Shown here: positions 22,615 through 48,965 of the stretch, one piece after another
Numbering within the stretch: position 1 is the first letter of the stretch
How the letters are laid out: each line of letters opens with the position of its first letter
Translations under genes and position numbers: made by a program
The notes under the pieces: generated by a model
Databases searched by the model: none
The model's input: only the letters and a program-made list of their open reading frames with translations
What the model was told of the DNA's origin: nothing
Source of the DNA: Patescibacteria group bacterium
Lineage (GTDB): Bacteria > Patescibacteriota > Microgenomatia > JAMCZE01
Reading direction: 5' to 3'
Assembly: GCA_023485845.1 (NCBI GenBank)
Contig: JAMCZE010000005.1
Location: 1 to 51,317 of the forward strand
DNA: 51,317 nt

Positions 22615-23646
22615 TTACACAAGAAACTGTTGAAGATTAGTGTCGTCGATAATAATCTGTTGGCCTTTGCCCGAGACGACGGACAAGGCGGCCTTGCGGA
22701 CCATATTATTAATCGTTCGTTCCAGGGTGCGAATGCCCGAGTCAAAGCCTAGGGGTCGGACAATCTTGGGCCAAACGTCGGCGCTGATCTGCAGTGTTCC
22801 TTCCGGCAGCCCCGAATCCTTCAGGACTTTTGGCAAAACGAAATCCCGCCCGATGGTGATTTTCTCCTCATCGGTGTAGGAGGGCATTTGAATTGGTTCC
22901 AGCCGGTCCAAAACGGCGGTGCTAATGTTAGTGGTGTTGTTGCTGGTGGCAATAAACAGCACGTCGGAAAGATCAAAAGGATAATCAATATAGTGGTCAG
23001 CAAAGCGGCTGTTTTGTTCCGGGTCTAATAGCTCTACTAAAACTCCCATAATGGTGGCCCGGGCTTCCTCGGCCACCCGGTCGATTTCATCCAGCAAAAT
23101 TACTGGGTTTTTGGTCCCGGCCCGGCGCAGGGCCTTAATAATCGCCCCCGGTTCCGCGTCGGCAAAAGAACGGGACTGGCCCCGCAAAAATTGGGCATCG
23201 CCGATGCCACCAAAGGGAATCCGTTCAAATTTGCGGCCCATTGCCTGGGCCACCGAATAGGCCAGGGTGGTTTTGCCGGTGCCCACCAGCCCAACCAGGA
23301 GCAAAATTGGAGCCCGATTGCCGGCTTTGCTTAATTTTAAAACCGCCAGATATTCCAGAATTTTATCTTTGGCCTCTTTAAGACCATAATGATTTTTATT
23401 AAGAACCGTCTCGGCATTGGGGATATCTAGGATATCATCAGATTTTTTGTCCCAGGGAAGAGCGGTCACCCAATCCAGATAGCGGGTGGTGGCATCAAAC
23501 TCGGCCGCATAATTGCCCCCCAACTTAGCCATCCGGTCCAGCCGCACCACCATGGCTTTTACCTTTTGTGATAACTCCTCCGGCAGTTTTGCCTGCACCA
23601 CTTTGTCTTCCAGTTGTCTGATCTCATCAATTGCTGGAGTGTCCAT
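22615..23646 (-). CDS. Lon-like AAA+ ATPase without protease domain
   Basis: 343 aa. It corresponds to the middle of Lon: a short coiled-coil linker, then AAA+ with Walker A GLVGTGKT (119-126), Walker B LLDEID (184-189) and the sensor and lid regions (LDRLEPIQMPSYTDEEK). LLDPEQNS and YPFDLSDVLFIATSNN parallel the full-length Lon at 46551-48965. The N-domain and the Ser-Lys protease domain are both missing, and the frame ends cleanly before the BRO-N gene. A role as unfoldase or remodeller is inferred. Confidence 0.85.
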   Translation of the reverse strand: MDTPAIDEIRQLEDKVVQAKLPEELSQKVKAMVVRLDRMAKLGGNYAAEFDATTRYLDWVTALPWDKKSDDILDIPNAETVLNKNHYGLKEAKDKILEYLAVLKLSKAGNRAPILLLVGLVGTGKTTLAYSVAQAMGRKFERIPFGGIGDAQFLRGQSRSFADAEPGAIIKALRRAGTKNPVILLDEIDRVAEEARATIMGVLVELLDPEQNSRFADHYIDYPFDLSDVLFIATSNNTTNISTAVLDRLEPIQMPSYTDEEKITIGRDFVLPKVLKDSGLPEGTLQISADVWPKIVRPLGFDSGIRTLERTINNMVRKAALSVVSGKGQQIIIDDTNLQQFLV

Positions 23647-32389: not shown

Positions 32390-33253
32390 TCAGAACCACC
32401 CACTGCGCTTGGAGTTGCCGCGCAGGGATTCGAGGGTTTCTTTTTGATCCCGGGAAAGTTTGGTGGGAACGCGGACGCGAATGCGGACATATTCGTCTCC
32501 GGCCCGAGAGCCGTGTGGTTCGGGGATGCCCCGGCCGCGCAGGCGAATAACGGTGTCCGGCTGGGTGCCGGCGGGAACTTTCAGGGTTACCGGCCCGTCA
32601 ATGGTCGGGACGTCAAGCGTCGTTCCGAGAGCCGCGTCGGCAAAATCCACTTCGGCGTCGACATAGACGTTGACCCCGTCGCGCTGGAAAGTTTTATCCT
32701 GGCCGACGGAGAGGACGACATCAAAATCGCCGAAGCGGACCCGGGAACCGTTGTCCACCCCGGCGGGAATTTTAATCGTCATCGTCCGGCCGCCGATTGT
32801 CACGCGCTTTTCCGTTCCTTTAGCCGCTTCCATGAAAGTGATGCTTAAAGAATAAACCTGGCGCCGGGGGGCACTGCGCCGGCCGGCGAAACTGCCGCCG
32901 CCGAAGAATTGCTCAAAAATTTCAAACGGGTCGGAAAAGCCACCGAAGTCCATGCCCTCGAAGGGATTTTGGCCGTTGCCATAGGTTTGATAGGTATACG
33001 TAAACGGTCCCTGCTGCGGCCCGCCGGCGTTTTGGCTGAAGGCCTCTTTGCCAAACTGGTCATATGTTTGGCGTTTCTGCGGATTGGACAAAACTTCGTA
33101 GGCCTCGTTTATCTCTTTGAATTTTTCCGCCGCCTGGGGGGATTTGTTACGGTCCGGGTGCCACTGAAGGGCTTGTTTTCGATAGGCCGCTTTAATCTCG
33201 GCATCAGAAGCGTTTTTTGAAACACCGAGGGTTTGATAATAGTCTTGGTTCAC
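32390..33253 (-). CDS. dnaJ: DnaJ-type co-chaperone without zinc fingers (CbpA-like)
   Basis: 287 aa. J domain 4-70 with the HPD motif ([10 protein letters not shown]), then a Gly/Phe-rich segment ([20 protein letters not shown]), then two substrate-binding beta domains. The four CxxCxGxG zinc-finger repeats of class I DnaJ are absent, so this is a class II J-protein serving as the DnaK partner. It overlaps dnaK by 4 nt at the end of the hrcA operon. Confidence 0.92.
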
Positions 33254-35112
33254 TTCACCACTTCTCCCTCCACGGGTTCTTCAGAAGATTTTGGTTGTTC
33301 TTCCGGTTGAGGTTGTTCTTGTCCTTTATACATGGCCGCGCCGATTTTTTGCAGGGCGTCGGAAAGATCCTTGGATTTAGTTTCAATGTCCTCTTTGGTG
33401 CCGGTGTCCAAAATGCCTTTGAGGGCGGCAATCTTATCTTCCACGTCTTTTTTAACATCGGCGGGCACTTTGTCGCCCGCGTCTTTAAGGGCCTTCTCGG
33501 CGGTGAAGATTAAGGAATCGGCAGCATTTTTAGCATCGATAGCTTCTTTTTTGACCCGGTCTTCCTCGGCATGCGCCTCGGCTTCTTTGGTCATCTTCTC
33601 CACTTCATCCTTAGAAAGTCCGGTGGAGCCGGTGATTTTAATGCTTTGTTCTTTGCCGGTGGCTTTGTCCTTGGCTTTAACCGCCAGAATGCCGGAGGCG
33701 TCAATATCAAAAGTCACTTCGATTTGGGGCATGCCCCGCGGTGCCGGGGGAATCCCGTCCAAAACAAACCGCCCCAGTGATTTATTGTCCGCCGCCATCG
33801 GCCGTTCGCCCTGGAGAACATTAATTTCCACTTGGGTTTGGTTGTCAGCGGCGGTGGAAAACACCTGGGACTTGCTGGTGGGAACGGTGGTGTTACGGGA
33901 AATAAGGGGAGTGGACACAGATCCCAGAGTTTCGATCCCCAAGGTCAGCGGGGTGACGTCCAAAAGGAGGACATCTTTAACTTCGCCCCCCAGCACGCCA
34001 CCCTGAACGGCGGCGCCGACGGCCACCACTTCATCGGGGTTAACGCTTTTATTGGGTTCTTTGCCGAAAAACTTACTGACCACCTCGACGACTTTGGGCA
34101 TCCGGGTCATGCCGCCGACCAGCACCACTTCGTCGATATCGCCGGTTTTTTTGCCGGCATCGCTTAGAGCTTTTTTGCAAGGTTCCAGGGTTTTTTGAAT
34201 CAGATCATCCACAATCTGCTCCAGTTTGGCCCGGGTTAGTTTCATCGTCAGATGGAGCGGTCCGTTGGCCCCCTGGGTGATAAACGGTTGGTTAATCTCC
34301 GCTTCCGTTGAGGACGAGAGTTCAATTTTGGCTTTCTCCGCCGCTTCGCGCAACCGTTGGAGAGCTTGTGGGTCTTTGCGAAGGTCGACATTGTTTTCTT
34401 TTTGAAATTCCTGGGCAATGTAGTCCAGAATTTTCTTGTCGAAGTCGTCGCCGCCAAGATGAGTGTCCCCATTGGTGGCTTTCACTTCATAAACACCTTC
34501 GCCCAGTTCCAGAATGGAAACGTCAAACGTGCCGCCGCCCAGGTCATAAACCACGATCGTGTGGGCGTTTTTCTTGTCCAGGCCGTAGGCCAGAGCGGCC
34601 GCCGTTGGTTCGTTAATAATGCGCAGCACTTCCAGCCCGGCAATTTCTCCGGCTTGCTTGGTGGCCTGGCGTTGGGAATCATCGAAATAGGCCGGCACCG
34701 TGATGACTGCCTGGGTCACTTTGCCGCCCAGGTAGGCCTCGGCATCAGACTTAATCTTGGTGAGAATCATAGCGGAGATTTCCTGGGGGGTGTATTGGTG
34801 ACCAGCCACTTCCACCACGGCCATGCCGTCCCGGCCGGATTTGATCGCGTAGGGGAGCCACTTGGCATCGAACTGGACGGAAGAATCGGTGAACTTGCGG
34901 CCCATCAATCTTTTGATGGAAAAAATAGTCTCTTTGGGTTTTAACACCAACTGCCGTTTGGCCACGTCACCGACCACATGGGTGACGGGGTCCACCACCG
35001 ACGGGATCACATTGCGCCCTTCCGCACTGTGAATGACTTTCGGCGCGCCGCCTTCCATGACAGCCACGCAGCTGTTAGTGGTTCCCAGGTCGATTCCTAT
35101 AATTTTTGCCAT
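33250..35112 (-). CDS. dnaK: Chaperone DnaK (Hsp70)
   Basis: 620 aa. The ATPase domain starts [17 protein letters not shown] and includes [14 protein letters not shown]; the substrate domain follows, with a C-terminal lid and a Glu/Pro/Gln-rich tail ending EGEVVK. DnaK binds exposed hydrophobic segments in an ATP cycle with DnaJ and GrpE. It starts inside grpE (16-nt overlap) and is part of hrcA-grpE-dnaK-dnaJ. Confidence 0.97.
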
Positions 35113-35510
35113 ACGACTACTTTTGCAACTCTAATAACCTTATCTTTTAATTTGTACCCTTTTTGTAAAACTTTAATGATCTTATTATTTTCCTGCCCCG
35201 GTTCAGTGCTTATCACTTCTGCCTGAGCCGGATCATACTCTTTTCCTTCCAGCTCCAACTCTTCCAATCCTTCGTCAGCCAAAATCTTTTTTAATTTTGC
35301 CAGAACCAGTTCCAATCCTTCATCCTTAATATGATCCTGCGCTTTTTCTAAATCGTCAAGTACCTCTAATAATTTTCTGATCAGTCCGACATTAGCATAT
35401 TGGCTAAATTCCTCTTTCCAATTGGCCGTTTGTTTTTCTAAATTCTGATAATCCGCCAACGCCCGCAAATACTTATTCTTTAACTCCTCTAACTCTTCCT
35501 GCTTTTTCAT
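35097..35510 (-). CDS. grpE: Nucleotide exchange factor GrpE
   Basis: 137 aa, short for GrpE (often about 190). The long N-terminal helix ([20 protein letters not shown]) and the C-terminal beta domain ([20 protein letters not shown], then [15 protein letters not shown]) are recognisable. GrpE drives ADP release from DnaK. It sits 9 nt after hrcA. Confidence 0.93.
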
Positions 35511-35519
35511 CTTTCCAGT

Positions 35520-36251
35520 TTACCAATTGCTTTCTAACTCTTCCAGTAGGCTGCCGAAATATTGCACGGTGGGAATCAGGCTGGGATAGTTGAGCCGGTA
35601 TGGCCCCATCACCCCAATGGTTCCCTGGTGCTTTTTCCCCCGGCCAAACCTAGTGAAAACTAGGCCGCACGGGGAAAGATAATCATAACCGAGATCGTCG
35701 CCAAGCATGACATAAATGTCACCCTCGCCGGTGGCCCGCTCGAAGATTTTATTTAAAAAAGCAAAGTTGTCAAGAAGAGCCAAAACGTTGCGAGTCAGGT
35801 CAATGTCAAAAAACTCCGGCATAGAAAGGATGTTGGCCGTGCCGGCGTAATAGACATCACCGGTGTCGTTGGTGGACAATGCTAGGGACTTGGTCGCCTG
35901 GGCCAACTCCCGGGTGGCGTCGCGCAGGGTTTTTTCAAACTCACTGCGGTGGTCCCAAACTTTTTCTTTAATCTTTACCTCGTCGGTGACGGACATATTT
36001 TTTGGCTGCATTAACTTGGTGACGTAATATTTCAAACCTTTTGGCGTCGGGCTGCGGCCGGCGCTGGTGTGCGGTTGAGACAGATACCCCAGCCGGGTCA
36101 GCTCCGCCATTTCGTTGCGCAGCGTGGCCGGAGAAACGCCCAAATTAAATTTTTTGTCCAGGGTGTCGGAACCCACCGGTTTGGCGGTTTCGATATATTC
36201 CTCAACAACATTTTTGAGGATTTTAATCTGGCGATTAGTCAATTCGTCCAT
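35520..36251 (-). CDS. hrcA: Heat-inducible transcription repressor HrcA, short form
   Basis: 243 aa against about 340. The N-terminal winged helix is clear (LTNRQIKILKNVVEEYIETA, SPATLRNEMAELTRLGYLSQ, HTSAGRSPTPKGLKYYV), and the C-terminal signature (IGVMGPYRLNYPSLIPTVQY) is present, so the shortening is internal, in the GAF-like part. HrcA binds CIRCE and is released on heat shock. ATG 36251 is chosen; a longer frame would read through the operator. CIRCE overlaps its own promoter. Confidence 0.93.
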   Translation of the reverse strand: MDELTNRQIKILKNVVEEYIETAKPVGSDTLDKKFNLGVSPATLRNEMAELTRLGYLSQPHTSAGRSPTPKGLKYYVTKLMQPKNMSVTDEVKIKEKVWDHRSEFEKTLRDATRELAQATKSLALSTNDTGDVYYAGTANILSMPEFFDIDLTRNVLALLDNFAFLNKIFERATGEGDIYVMLGDDLGYDYLSPCGLVFTRFGRGKKHQGTIGVMGPYRLNYPSLIPTVQYFGSLLEELESNW

Positions 36252-36265
36252 GATTTTCAGTTCAA

Positions 36266-36292
36266 TTAGCACTAAAATACCATGACTGCTAA
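36266..36292. promoter_or_regulatory. CIRCE operator between hrcA and groES
   Basis: TTAGCACTA-N9-GACTGCTAA, close to the CIRCE consensus TTAGCACTC-N9-GAGTGCTAA with the exact 9-9-9 spacing. It overlaps the hrcA -10 and spacer and lies 30 bp upstream of the groES -35. Confidence 0.9.
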
Positions 36293-36302
36293 GACCTGTC
36301 AA
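36274..36302 (-). promoter_or_regulatory. Promoter of the hrcA-grpE-dnaK-dnaJ operon
   Basis: Minus strand TTGACA (36297-36302), a 17-bp spacer and TATTTT (36274-36279). CIRCE overlaps most of it, so HrcA should block RNA polymerase directly. Confidence 0.75.
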
Positions 36303-36321: not shown

Positions 36322-36350
36322 TTGACAAATTTTGCTAACCTCCTTAAAAT
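36322..36350 (+). promoter_or_regulatory. groES promoter
   Basis: TTGACA (36322-36327), a 17-bp spacer and TAAAAT (36345-36350). The groES ATG follows after 8 nt, so the mRNA would have almost no leader. Confidence 0.75.
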
Positions 36351-36358
36351 CGCAATCG

Positions 36359-38861
<2,503 letters not shown>

Positions 38862-45640: not shown

Positions 45641-46503
45641 ATTTACCTGACGTTCCCCTCATCTTTTTCCTCCTGATCACCTTTGTGACGGTGTTGGCGC
45701 TGCTGTTGATTATCTGGAAAACAGATAATGAGCTGGCCAAGATGCAAAAAAAGCTGGCATCATTGGAGGATTTCACCGCAAAATTAGTTCACGAGCTGCG
45801 GGCGCCGCTGACGGTGATTCGCGGGACGACTGATATGTTCACCCGGACGCCGGAATTGGCGGACCAAGATAAGGGCAAAGAACTTCTTAAAACAATGGAA
45901 ACGTCTGCCGGAGATATGTTAACAATGGTGAATAGTCTGCTTGATGTCTATAAGATTGAAGCTGGCAAATTTCAGGTTGTCAAAACCCGTGGTAACCTGG
46001 CTGATATTCTTACTGACCGGGTGACATTTTTTGGCGAATTGGCCACAGAGAATGGGGAGACAATCAAAGCCGACTTGCCGGATAAGAATTTAACGTTTAA
46101 TTTTGACAGGGATCGAATTATCCAGGTAATTAATAATTTACTGTCTAATGCGATCAAATTCACCCCTAATGGCGGCAGTGTCACCGTCAGCGCCAGCAAA
46201 ATAAATTCCCCTGCGGACATCAAATGGCGCTTCCCATCGGCATCCCGCTATTACTTTTCCGGGGTTTCTAAGCCCGCAGTGCTGGTGGCGGTTAGCGACA
46301 CCGGCGAAGGAGTCCCAAAGGAAAAACTGCCGGAGTTATTTACTCGGTTCAAACAGCTGGAGCCGGACAATCATGGAGGCACCGGCTTGGGGTTGGTGAT
46401 TGTTAAGGGGATTGTCGAGTCACATGGCGGCAAGGTCTTTTTGGAATCACAGCTCGGAACAGGGACGACATTTTACTTTACATTACCACTTGACCCCGAT
46501 TAA
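45637..46503 (+). CDS. Membrane histidine kinase
   Basis: 288 aa. One N-terminal membrane helix (about 5-27), then HisKA with the phospho-accepting His in KLVHELRAPLTVIRG (near 50), and an HATPase domain with N box NNLLSNAIKFTPNGG, G1 VSDTGEGVP and G2 GGTGLGLVIVKGI. No sensory domain is visible between helix and HisKA, so the signal is probably read at or in the membrane. Partner of the upstream regulator. Confidence 0.9.
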   Translation: MNLPDVPLIFFLLITFVTVLALLLIIWKTDNELAKMQKKLASLEDFTAKLVHELRAPLTVIRGTTDMFTRTPELADQDKGKELLKTMETSAGDMLTMVNSLLDVYKIEAGKFQVVKTRGNLADILTDRVTFFGELATENGETIKADLPDKNLTFNFDRDRIIQVINNLLSNAIKFTPNGGSVTVSASKINSPADIKWRFPSASRYYFSGVSKPAVLVAVSDTGEGVPKEKLPELFTRFKQLEPDNHGGTGLGLVIVKGIVESHGGKVFLESQLGTGTTFYFTLPLDPD

Positions 46504-46510
46504 ATCGGGG

Positions 46511-46539
46511 TTGACATTTAGCACATGATGGTTTAGACT
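46511..46539 (+). promoter_or_regulatory. lon promoter
   Basis: TTGACA (46511-46516), a 17-bp spacer and TAGACT (46534-46539), 11 nt before the lon ATG. The CIRCE-like element lies across it. Confidence 0.75.
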
Positions 46540-46544
46540 GCTAG
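46518..46544. promoter_or_regulatory. CIRCE-like operator over the lon promoter
   Basis: TTAGCACAT-N9-GACTGCTAG with the exact 9-9-9 layout. The left arm shares TTAGCAC and the right arm GACTGCTA with the groES/hrcA CIRCE at 36266-36292. It covers the spacer, -10 and likely start site. Confidence 0.75.
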
Positions 46545-46550
46545 CTTATT

Positions 46551-48965
46551 ATGGAGCAAACAAAAGTTTTGCCGGTGGCTCCCCTTCGTGACGGTCCGGT
46601 TTTCCCGGGCACGGATATCCCCTTGGTTTTCAGCCGCAGTCAAAGCGTGGCGGCCCTCAAAAGTGCGGCAGAAACCAACCGGTTGATCTTTGTCACTGCG
46701 CAGAAAGATCCTAATCTGGCGGAGACGGATAGCAGTAATCTGGAAACGGTTGGCACAATCTGCCAGATTAAGCACCTCTATCAAAATGAAGCGGAAGTCA
46801 ACGTTCTGGTGACCGGCATGTCCCGGGCCAAGGTAATTCGCTTTCAGAACCTTGAGGATTTTTTGGTGGCGGAGCTTGAAGAGGTTCCCGATCAATTTGA
46901 GGCTAATGACCCGGAAATTATTGCCCTGTCTGAGCACATTGTGGTGCAATTCCAAAATGCCCTGCGCATGGGGCGAAACTTTGATTTTTTTGTCCTTTTG
47001 AAACTTTCTTCGGGCCTGGGACCGATGGAACTGGCCAATCAAATGACCCAAGTTCTTGATTTCTCTGTGGCACAGCGCCAGCAGCTTTTAGAACAGGTTG
47101 ATGTCAAGTCCCGACTAAAAGTGGTGGCGGAACAGCTGGCCAAAGAAGTGAAGATTGTGGAGTTGGAACACAAGCTGATGGCTCAGAGTCAGGCCAAAAT
47201 GGAAAAGGGGACCAAAGAAAGCATCTTGCGGGAGAGGAAAAAAGCCATCGAGAAAGAGTTAGGGGAAATTGATGATGAGGAAAAAGAAACGGAAGAACTG
47301 CGCAAAAAAGCCAAGGAAGCGGGCATGCCGGAAGACGTTCTGGCCAAGACCTTGAAAGAAATTAAACGGTTGGAACAGATGAGTGGGGCCAATCCGGAGG
47401 CGGGCTACATCCGCACCTATGTGGAGTGGCTTTTAGACATGCCTTGGAATGTTAAGTCGCCTAATAACACTAACATCATTGATGCCCAACAAACTTTGGA
47501 GGAGGACCACTATGGTCTGGAAAAAGTGAAAGAGCGAATTATAGAATATTTGGCGGTTTTGAAATTAAAGCATGCCCAGGTGCAGGAGGAGCCCCAGAAA
47601 AAGAAAGTCACCACACCGACGATTATTTGTTTTGTTGGGCCGCCGGGAGTGGGCAAAACCAGCATTGGTAAATCAATTGCCAAAGCCCTGGGGAGAAAAT
47701 TCGTTCGCATTTCTCTAGGCGGGGTTCGCGACGAAGCCGAGATTCGCGGCCACCGGCGCACCTATGTTGGGGCGCTACCCGGCCGCATAATTCAAGGCAT
47801 TAAACAGTCGGGAACCAAGAACCCAGTTTTCATGCTGGATGAGATTGATAAGCTGGGTAACGACTTTCGCGGCGATCCTTCAGCGGCTCTTTTGGAAGCT
47901 CTTGATCCGGAGCAAAACTCCGCTTTTTCCGATCACTATCTGGAGGTTCCCTTTGACCTCTCGGAAGTGATTTTTATCACCACCGCCAATGTTTTGGAAA
48001 CCATCCCCCCGGCCCTGGTGGACCGGCTGGAAATCATTGAGTTCCCCGGCTACACGGCCGAGGAAAAATTTCACATCGGTAAAAAATATCTTATTCCTAA
48101 ACAGTTGGAAGTAAACGGCATCAAGCCGGAGCAGGCAACTTTCTCCGATGAGACCCTAAAGACGATTATCGCCCGCTACACTCGGGAGGCGGGGGTGCGC
48201 AATCTCGAGCGGGAACTAGCCACGGTGCTGCGAAAGATTGCCAAGAAGATTGCCGAGGGCAAAACCAGCGAAACGATTTCCATTCGCCCGGCCGGACTGC
48301 ACAAATATTTGGGACCGTTTAAGTTCACCTCCACGATCGCGGAGCGGCGGGACGAAGTGGGATTGTCCACCGGGCTCTATTGGTCTGCCGCCGGCGGGGG
48401 AATTATGCTCATTGAGGTGGCGACGATGCCCGGTAAGGGTGGGTTAACCTTAACCGGCCGGTTGGGTGACGTGATGCAGGAATCGGCCCGGGCGGCAATG
48501 TCCTATGTCCGCAGTCGTTGGAAGCAGTTGGGCTTGGATGAGAAGTTTTTCCAAAAATTGGATGTTCATGTCCATGTGCCGGAGGGAGCCACCCCCAAAG
48601 ACGGCCCGTCGGCTGGGGTGGCCCTGACCATTGCTCTGGCTTCGGCTCTCACCAAAATCCCGGTGAAGAAATTTGTCGGGATGACCGGGGAAGTGACCTT
48701 GCGCGGCCGGGTGCTGGAGATTGGGGGACTTAAGGAAAAAGTCATTGGCGCCCATCTGGCGGGACTCAAAACAGTGGTTATTCCTAAGGAGAATAAAAAA
48801 GATTTGGAAGACATTCCCAAAAATATTCTCAAAGATTTGGAGTTTAAGTTTGTGGAGAACATGGACGAAGTTCTGGACATTGCCCTGGTAGCCCACCCCC
48901 AGCCGAAAGCCGCCAAGATCATCTCCGGCCGCCACCAATTTGCCCGCCTGGAGCTGCCGGAGTAA
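46551..48965 (+). CDS. lon: ATP-dependent protease Lon
   Basis: 804 aa, standard. N-domain and coiled coil (1-310), AAA+ module with GPPGVGKT (near 364) and MLDEID, then the protease domain with catalytic dyad S687 (PKDGPSAG) and K730 (GGLKEKVIGAH), the same spacing as in other Lon proteases. Lon degrades misfolded and regulatory proteins. It lies behind a promoter with a CIRCE-like operator. It ends 2 nt before a convergent gene. Confidence 0.97.
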   Translation: MEQTKVLPVAPLRDGPVFPGTDIPLVFSRSQSVAALKSAAETNRLIFVTAQKDPNLAETDSSNLETVGTICQIKHLYQNEAEVNVLVTGMSRAKVIRFQNLEDFLVAELEEVPDQFEANDPEIIALSEHIVVQFQNALRMGRNFDFFVLLKLSSGLGPMELANQMTQVLDFSVAQRQQLLEQVDVKSRLKVVAEQLAKEVKIVELEHKLMAQSQAKMEKGTKESILRERKKAIEKELGEIDDEEKETEELRKKAKEAGMPEDVLAKTLKEIKRLEQMSGANPEAGYIRTYVEWLLDMPWNVKSPNNTNIIDAQQTLEEDHYGLEKVKERIIEYLAVLKLKHAQVQEEPQKKKVTTPTIICFVGPPGVGKTSIGKSIAKALGRKFVRISLGGVRDEAEIRGHRRTYVGALPGRIIQGIKQSGTKNPVFMLDEIDKLGNDFRGDPSAALLEALDPEQNSAFSDHYLEVPFDLSEVIFITTANVLETIPPALVDRLEIIEFPGYTAEEKFHIGKKYLIPKQLEVNGIKPEQATFSDETLKTIIARYTREAGVRNLERELATVLRKIAKKIAEGKTSETISIRPAGLHKYLGPFKFTSTIAERRDEVGLSTGLYWSAAGGGIMLIEVATMPGKGGLTLTGRLGDVMQESARAAMSYVRSRWKQLGLDEKFFQKLDVHVHVPEGATPKDGPSAGVALTIALASALTKIPVKKFVGMTGEVTLRGRVLEIGGLKEKVIGAHLAGLKTVVIPKENKKDLEDIPKNILKDLEFKFVENMDEVLDIALVAHPQPKAAKIISGRHQFARLELPE

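Follow-up and report, generated by a model that had tools for sequence, protein, structure and literature searches.

The window analyzed here, a 51,317-nt stretch of DNA belonging to an 883-kb genome of the class Microgenomatia (CPR) assembled in 14 contigs, carries lon (46551–48965, + strand), which encodes an 804-residue ATP-dependent protease with LAN, AAA+, Lon lid and Lon_C (protease) domains. A CIRCE-type operator, TTAGCACAT-N9-GACTGCTAG (46518–46544, + strand; hereinafter designated the lon element), was identified by sequence, conservation and matrix scans; its full sequence is TTAGCACAT-GATGGTTTA-GACTGCTAG, in which GATGGTTTA is the N9 spacer. The first ATG of lon, at 46551, lies 6 bp past the operator. 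A promoter of the form TTGACA-N17-TAGACT overlaps the element. Its −35 box (TTGACA, 46511–46516, + strand) is located 1 bp ahead of the left arm, and its −10 box (TAGACT, 46534–46539, + strand), separated from the −35 box by a 17-bp spacer, occupies element positions 17–22 and extends into the right arm. An earlier reading of the sequence alone (hereinafter designated the sequence-only reading) had placed a CIRCE-like operator over the lon promoter at 46518–46544. Both the position and the overlap are confirmed, with the promoter hexamers lying inside and beside the element and not apart from it.

A short G+C-rich inverted repeat, CCCCGATTAAATCGGGG (46494–46510, + strand), read directly from the sequence, overlaps the stop codon of the histidine kinase gene that lies upstream. 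The repeat is not among the entries of the terminator scan of the window and is a possible end of the upstream transcript. Since it ends where the −35 box starts, the arrangement suggests that lon forms a separate transcription unit.

The window also contains the two chaperone operons. The hrcA operon comprises hrcA (35520–36251), grpE (35097–35510), dnaK (33250–35112) and dnaJ (32390–33253), all on the − strand, and its promoter (TTGACA at 36302–36297 and −10 box TATTTT at 36279–36274) carries a CIRCE operator at 36266–36292 (− strand). The genes groES (36359–36658) and groEL (36664–38316) lie on the + strand, and a weaker CIRCE-type operator of groES (36349–36375, + strand) ranks as the third locus with the hrcA- and groES-trained matrices described below. 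This operator spans the ATG at 36359 as well as the position where transcription is expected to begin, and the same element precedes groES in two relatives, G002 and G003; the region 36322–36375 suggests that the groES transcript, too, is leaderless. The sequence-only reading had assumed one CIRCE shared by hrcA and groES. The site at 36266–36292 is indeed a CIRCE on the hrcA promoter, but groES has an operator of its own.

The genome encodes a compact HrcA repressor of 243 residues with a conserved winged-helix DNA-binding domain. Its N-terminus matches T. maritima HrcA (1stz) with an E value of 8e-20 over the winged helix, and the Pfam HrcA domain falls on its C-terminal part, with only positions 98–215 of the 215 in the domain covered. 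For the predicted fold (mean pLDDT 85), 1stz is the top match (TM score 0.77 on the query), and a stretch of 1stz is missing from the window protein. Small size is typical of the class, in which HrcA spans 230–271 residues with a median of about 242 (38 genomes read), compared with 338 in T. maritima 1stz. We found hrcA in 56 of 59 class genomes; G001, G006 and G022, the three that gave no hrcA match, nevertheless have intact lon operators. Because groES was likewise not found in G001 and G006, assembly gaps are likely in these two genomes; G022 keeps its lon operator all the same and counts against the HrcA reading.

Judged by its consensus match alone, the lon element is a weak and unconvincing CIRCE. 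Of its 18 arm bases, 14 fit the consensus, the palindrome is imperfect, and owing to its four arm mismatches the element is missed by a strict CIRCE scan (≤3 mismatches), the sole match of which is the hrcA operator at 36266. A loose 14-base pattern (≤3 mismatches) gives 38 matches genome-wide, the same number as its reversed control. What makes the site convincing is its overlap with the promoter, its recognition by matrices trained on hrcA and groES operators, and its conservation before lon in relatives. With matrices trained on hrcA-only or groES-only operators from other families, 46518 is the top locus in the window outside the hrcA/groES region, and none of 20 shuffled windows scores equal to it with either matrix. 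A matrix derived from the lon operators of other families likewise ranks the site first. The element has the layout of CIRCE, an inverted repeat TTAGCA...TGCTAA with a 9-bp spacer, and, as expected of a CIRCE, it overlaps the promoter of the gene it would control. It shares its motif with the organism's own hrcA operator, as indicated by the hrcA-trained matrix and, in one family, by the joint N9-to-N10 change described below. Other 2-mismatch matches in the genome were dropped, two of them lying inside long reading frames and one having no gene start in reach.

In 58/58 lon regions of the class Microgenomatia, representing about 31 families, the 350 bp upstream of lon hold a CIRCE-type element that matches 10 or more of the 12 core bases, compared with 4/176 control windows from the same loci. 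Conservation before lon, on which the sequence-only reading had staked its proposal, is thereby borne out. The spacing is N9 in 54 of these operators and N10 in four. In the latter (G008, G032, G047 and G018) the element seemed missing at N9 spacing and is present with N10, and in G043, where it also seemed missing, it sits at a longer distance from lon. Positions T2, C5, A6, T22, G23, C24 and A26 are invariant in all 53 aligned N9 sites; spacer positions 10–13 and 16 vary. Within the window's family (four genera), the −35 box (TTGAC followed by A or T), the left TTAGCA and TAGACTGC are identical, and the spacer differs. All named class members that we found, namely Levybacteria, Gottesmanbacteria, Roizmanbacteria, Amesbacteria and Woesebacteria, bear the element. 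It is absent from approximately 70 lon genes of other phyla in which it was looked for. Sampling of the rest of the phylum gave a strong Lon match in 25 of 116 genomes, class members counted in; two genomes from other classes (G085 and G064; loci L140 and L143) have a weaker CIRCE before lon, with its right arm over the −35 rather than the −10 box. The exact core pattern occurs at 117 sites in the 59 genomes versus four control sites. In relatives, many additional exact core sites are intragenic and were set aside.

The relation between operator and promoter is equally regular. A 17-bp spacer combined with a −10 box starting at element position 17 is found in 41 of the 50 lon regions with a readable −35 box; the embedded −10 box is most often TAGACT, and 42 of 53 −35 boxes read TTGACA or TTGACT. 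The −10 box lies about 3 bp further left in hrcA operators than in lon operators, and at or before the left arm in groES operators, so the point at which a bound repressor would block the promoter differs among the three kinds of operator. In most relatives, an in-frame lon start codon follows 0–12 bp past the element, so the predicted transcript is almost leaderless: judging from promoter geometry, lon mRNA would have a very short 5′ leader or none. The N10 family is the exception, with 120–256 bp between the element and the matched Lon start.

This family also provides what is, at the level of sequence, the strongest link between HrcA and lon. In G008, G032 and G047, three genera of one family, the spacer is N10 rather than N9 in the hrcA operator and in the lon operator alike; the remaining hrcA operators examined (46 genomes) have N9. 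A joint change of this kind is expected if one repressor reads both operators. The three genera are related, so the change was probably one evolutionary event. G018 is a counter-example, with an N10 lon operator and an N9 hrcA operator, and indicates that the spacing is not always shared between the two.

Three other explanations of the lon element were weighed against control by HrcA. One is that lon is transcribed constitutively from a strong promoter and that the element there resembles CIRCE by chance. The agreement at only 14 of 18 arm bases and the loose genome-wide scans, which do not exceed their control, are compatible with coincidence, but the conservation in every relative as against very few control windows refutes it, as does the persistence of the arms while the spacer varies, and we regard chance as extremely unlikely. 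The inverted repeat might instead function at the RNA level, forming a 5′ stem that influences the stability or translation of the lon message, as CIRCE repeats can occur in the 5′ leaders of other bacteria. With the −10 box in the right arm, however, the predicted transcription start in most relatives falls no earlier than the end of the element, so that the repeat would not be transcribed there; a role as an RNA stem was rejected on this ground and retains hardly any probability.

It is also conceivable, though improbable, that a repressor other than HrcA shares the inverted repeat, or that the lon site has drifted to a specificity of its own. A C at position 21 (GACTGCTAA) is preferred in lon sites and less so in hrcA sites, three genomes keep the lon site where no hrcA was found, and the spacing in G018 differs between the two operators. 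The preference at position 21, however, fits the −10 box that lies there, and a separate specificity is at odds with the recognition of the lon site by hrcA- and groES-trained matrices and with the shift of both operators to N10 together in one family. Nor was CtsR found in the 59 class genomes.

The inventory of proteases and regulators in the class bears on why lon might be joined to the chaperone genes. A search for CtsR in the 59 class genomes returned 0/59, which gives no indication of a CtsR regulon. For sigma-70 region 2, one match was obtained in the window's genome, and further, shorter matches occur in several relatives. Of 20 class genomes searched for ClpP, two gave a match; the window's genome did not. 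With ClpP mostly not found and CtsR not found, Lon is probably the main soluble ATP-dependent quality-control protease, in agreement with the sequence-only reading, which had assigned it this role. Given this probable role, and HrcA being the only heat-shock repressor found, joint control of protease and chaperones is plausible. Next to pnp, the window also encodes a 343-residue protein (22615–23646, − strand) that is 39% identical to Lon residues 246–587 (stalk, AAA+ and lid). The product has neither the substrate-binding nor the protease domain and is thus a protease-less Lon-like ATPase; nearly all class relatives have a match of comparable length.

Exact core CIRCE sequences were also observed before other genes. 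They lie right before M48 (HtpX-like) protease genes (L255, 2068–2094; L259, 2013–2039), before peptidyl-tRNA hydrolase genes (L251, 2047–2073; L253, 2045–2071) and before a small metallopeptidase-like gene (L240, 1959–1985; L241, 1982–2008), each time in two genera of one family, and before hsp20 in one genus. The metallopeptidase-like call on the L240/L241 gene was made by eye from an HELxH-type motif, with no Pfam match.

Taken together, the sequence evidence makes it very probable that the lon element is a genuine HrcA operator placed in the sole obvious lon promoter, and that HrcA represses lon along with hrcA-grpE-dnaK-dnaJ and groESL. The suggestion of the sequence-only reading that HrcA may also control the protease gains support from the class-wide conservation of the element. 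HrcA on the lon operator would mask the −10 box together with most of the −35/−10 spacer, in which case RNA polymerase could not bind and lon would stay low. GroEL is an established co-factor of HrcA in Bacillus. If the same holds here, misfolded proteins would occupy GroEL, HrcA activity would be lost, and lon would be induced along with hrcA-grpE-dnaK-dnaJ and groESL. We infer HrcA binding, repression, GroEL sensing and heat induction of lon.

On a broader scale, we lean towards the view that in Microgenomatia, with few sigma factors, no CtsR found and no ClpP found in most genomes, HrcA is the general protein-quality regulator, controlling chaperones and Lon via promoter-fused operators, with extra proteases and chaperones in single families, and that Mollicutes reached the same wiring independently. 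The HtpX-like M48 protease, the small metallopeptidase-like gene and Hsp20 are suggested as such extra targets and belong to the same reading. Very little is known of gene regulation in CPR bacteria, and here a regulon can be predicted from sequence for a whole class, with its repressor, its operator logo and a defined set of targets. The short operator, the fixed promoter geometry and the small HrcA make the prediction testable in vitro without culturing.

The predicted regulon resembles the classical HrcA/CIRCE regulon of Bacillus subtilis and many phyla, with TTAGCACTC-N9-GAGTGCTAA at hrcA-grpE-dnaK-dnaJ and groESL, in operator layout, repressor family and the inclusion of both chaperone operons, both of which lie in the window. 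It differs from the classical regulon in the addition of lon, in an HrcA of about 242 instead of about 340 residues, in the N10 spacing of one family and in looser half-sites (TTAGCA, then C/G/A, then T). Control of proteases by CtsR or sigma-32 likewise co-regulates chaperones and ATP-dependent proteases under heat; here, by contrast, no CtsR was found in 59 class genomes, only one match to sigma-70 region 2 turned up in the window's genome, and the operator is of the CIRCE type. Our literature search, which included few subscription papers, found nothing on HrcA or CIRCE in Patescibacteria. CIRCE/HrcA control of lon has been reported in Mycoplasma pneumoniae (PMC7737663), M. gallisepticum (PMC4245973) and Spiroplasma melliferum (PMC5138195). 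The extension of the HrcA regulon to lon put forward by the sequence-only reading is therefore supported for this class but is not new to biology; what is new is its predicted class-wide occurrence in Microgenomatia. M. pneumoniae has no ATP-dependent proteases besides Lon and FtsH (PMC7737663), and its lon is additionally transcribed from the trigger factor promoter. Like Microgenomatia, Mollicutes have a CIRCE before lon, a reduced genome and lon joined to the chaperone regulon. They are an unrelated lineage, and the evidence there includes expression data, whereas that for Microgenomatia is from sequence. The comparison suggests a repeatable outcome of genome reduction, in which the soluble protease that remains, the same one in two unrelated reduced lineages, came under the repressor of the chaperone genes in both. 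Compared with Mollicutes, Microgenomatia carry the site before every lon examined, with the −10 box at a fixed offset inside the right arm.
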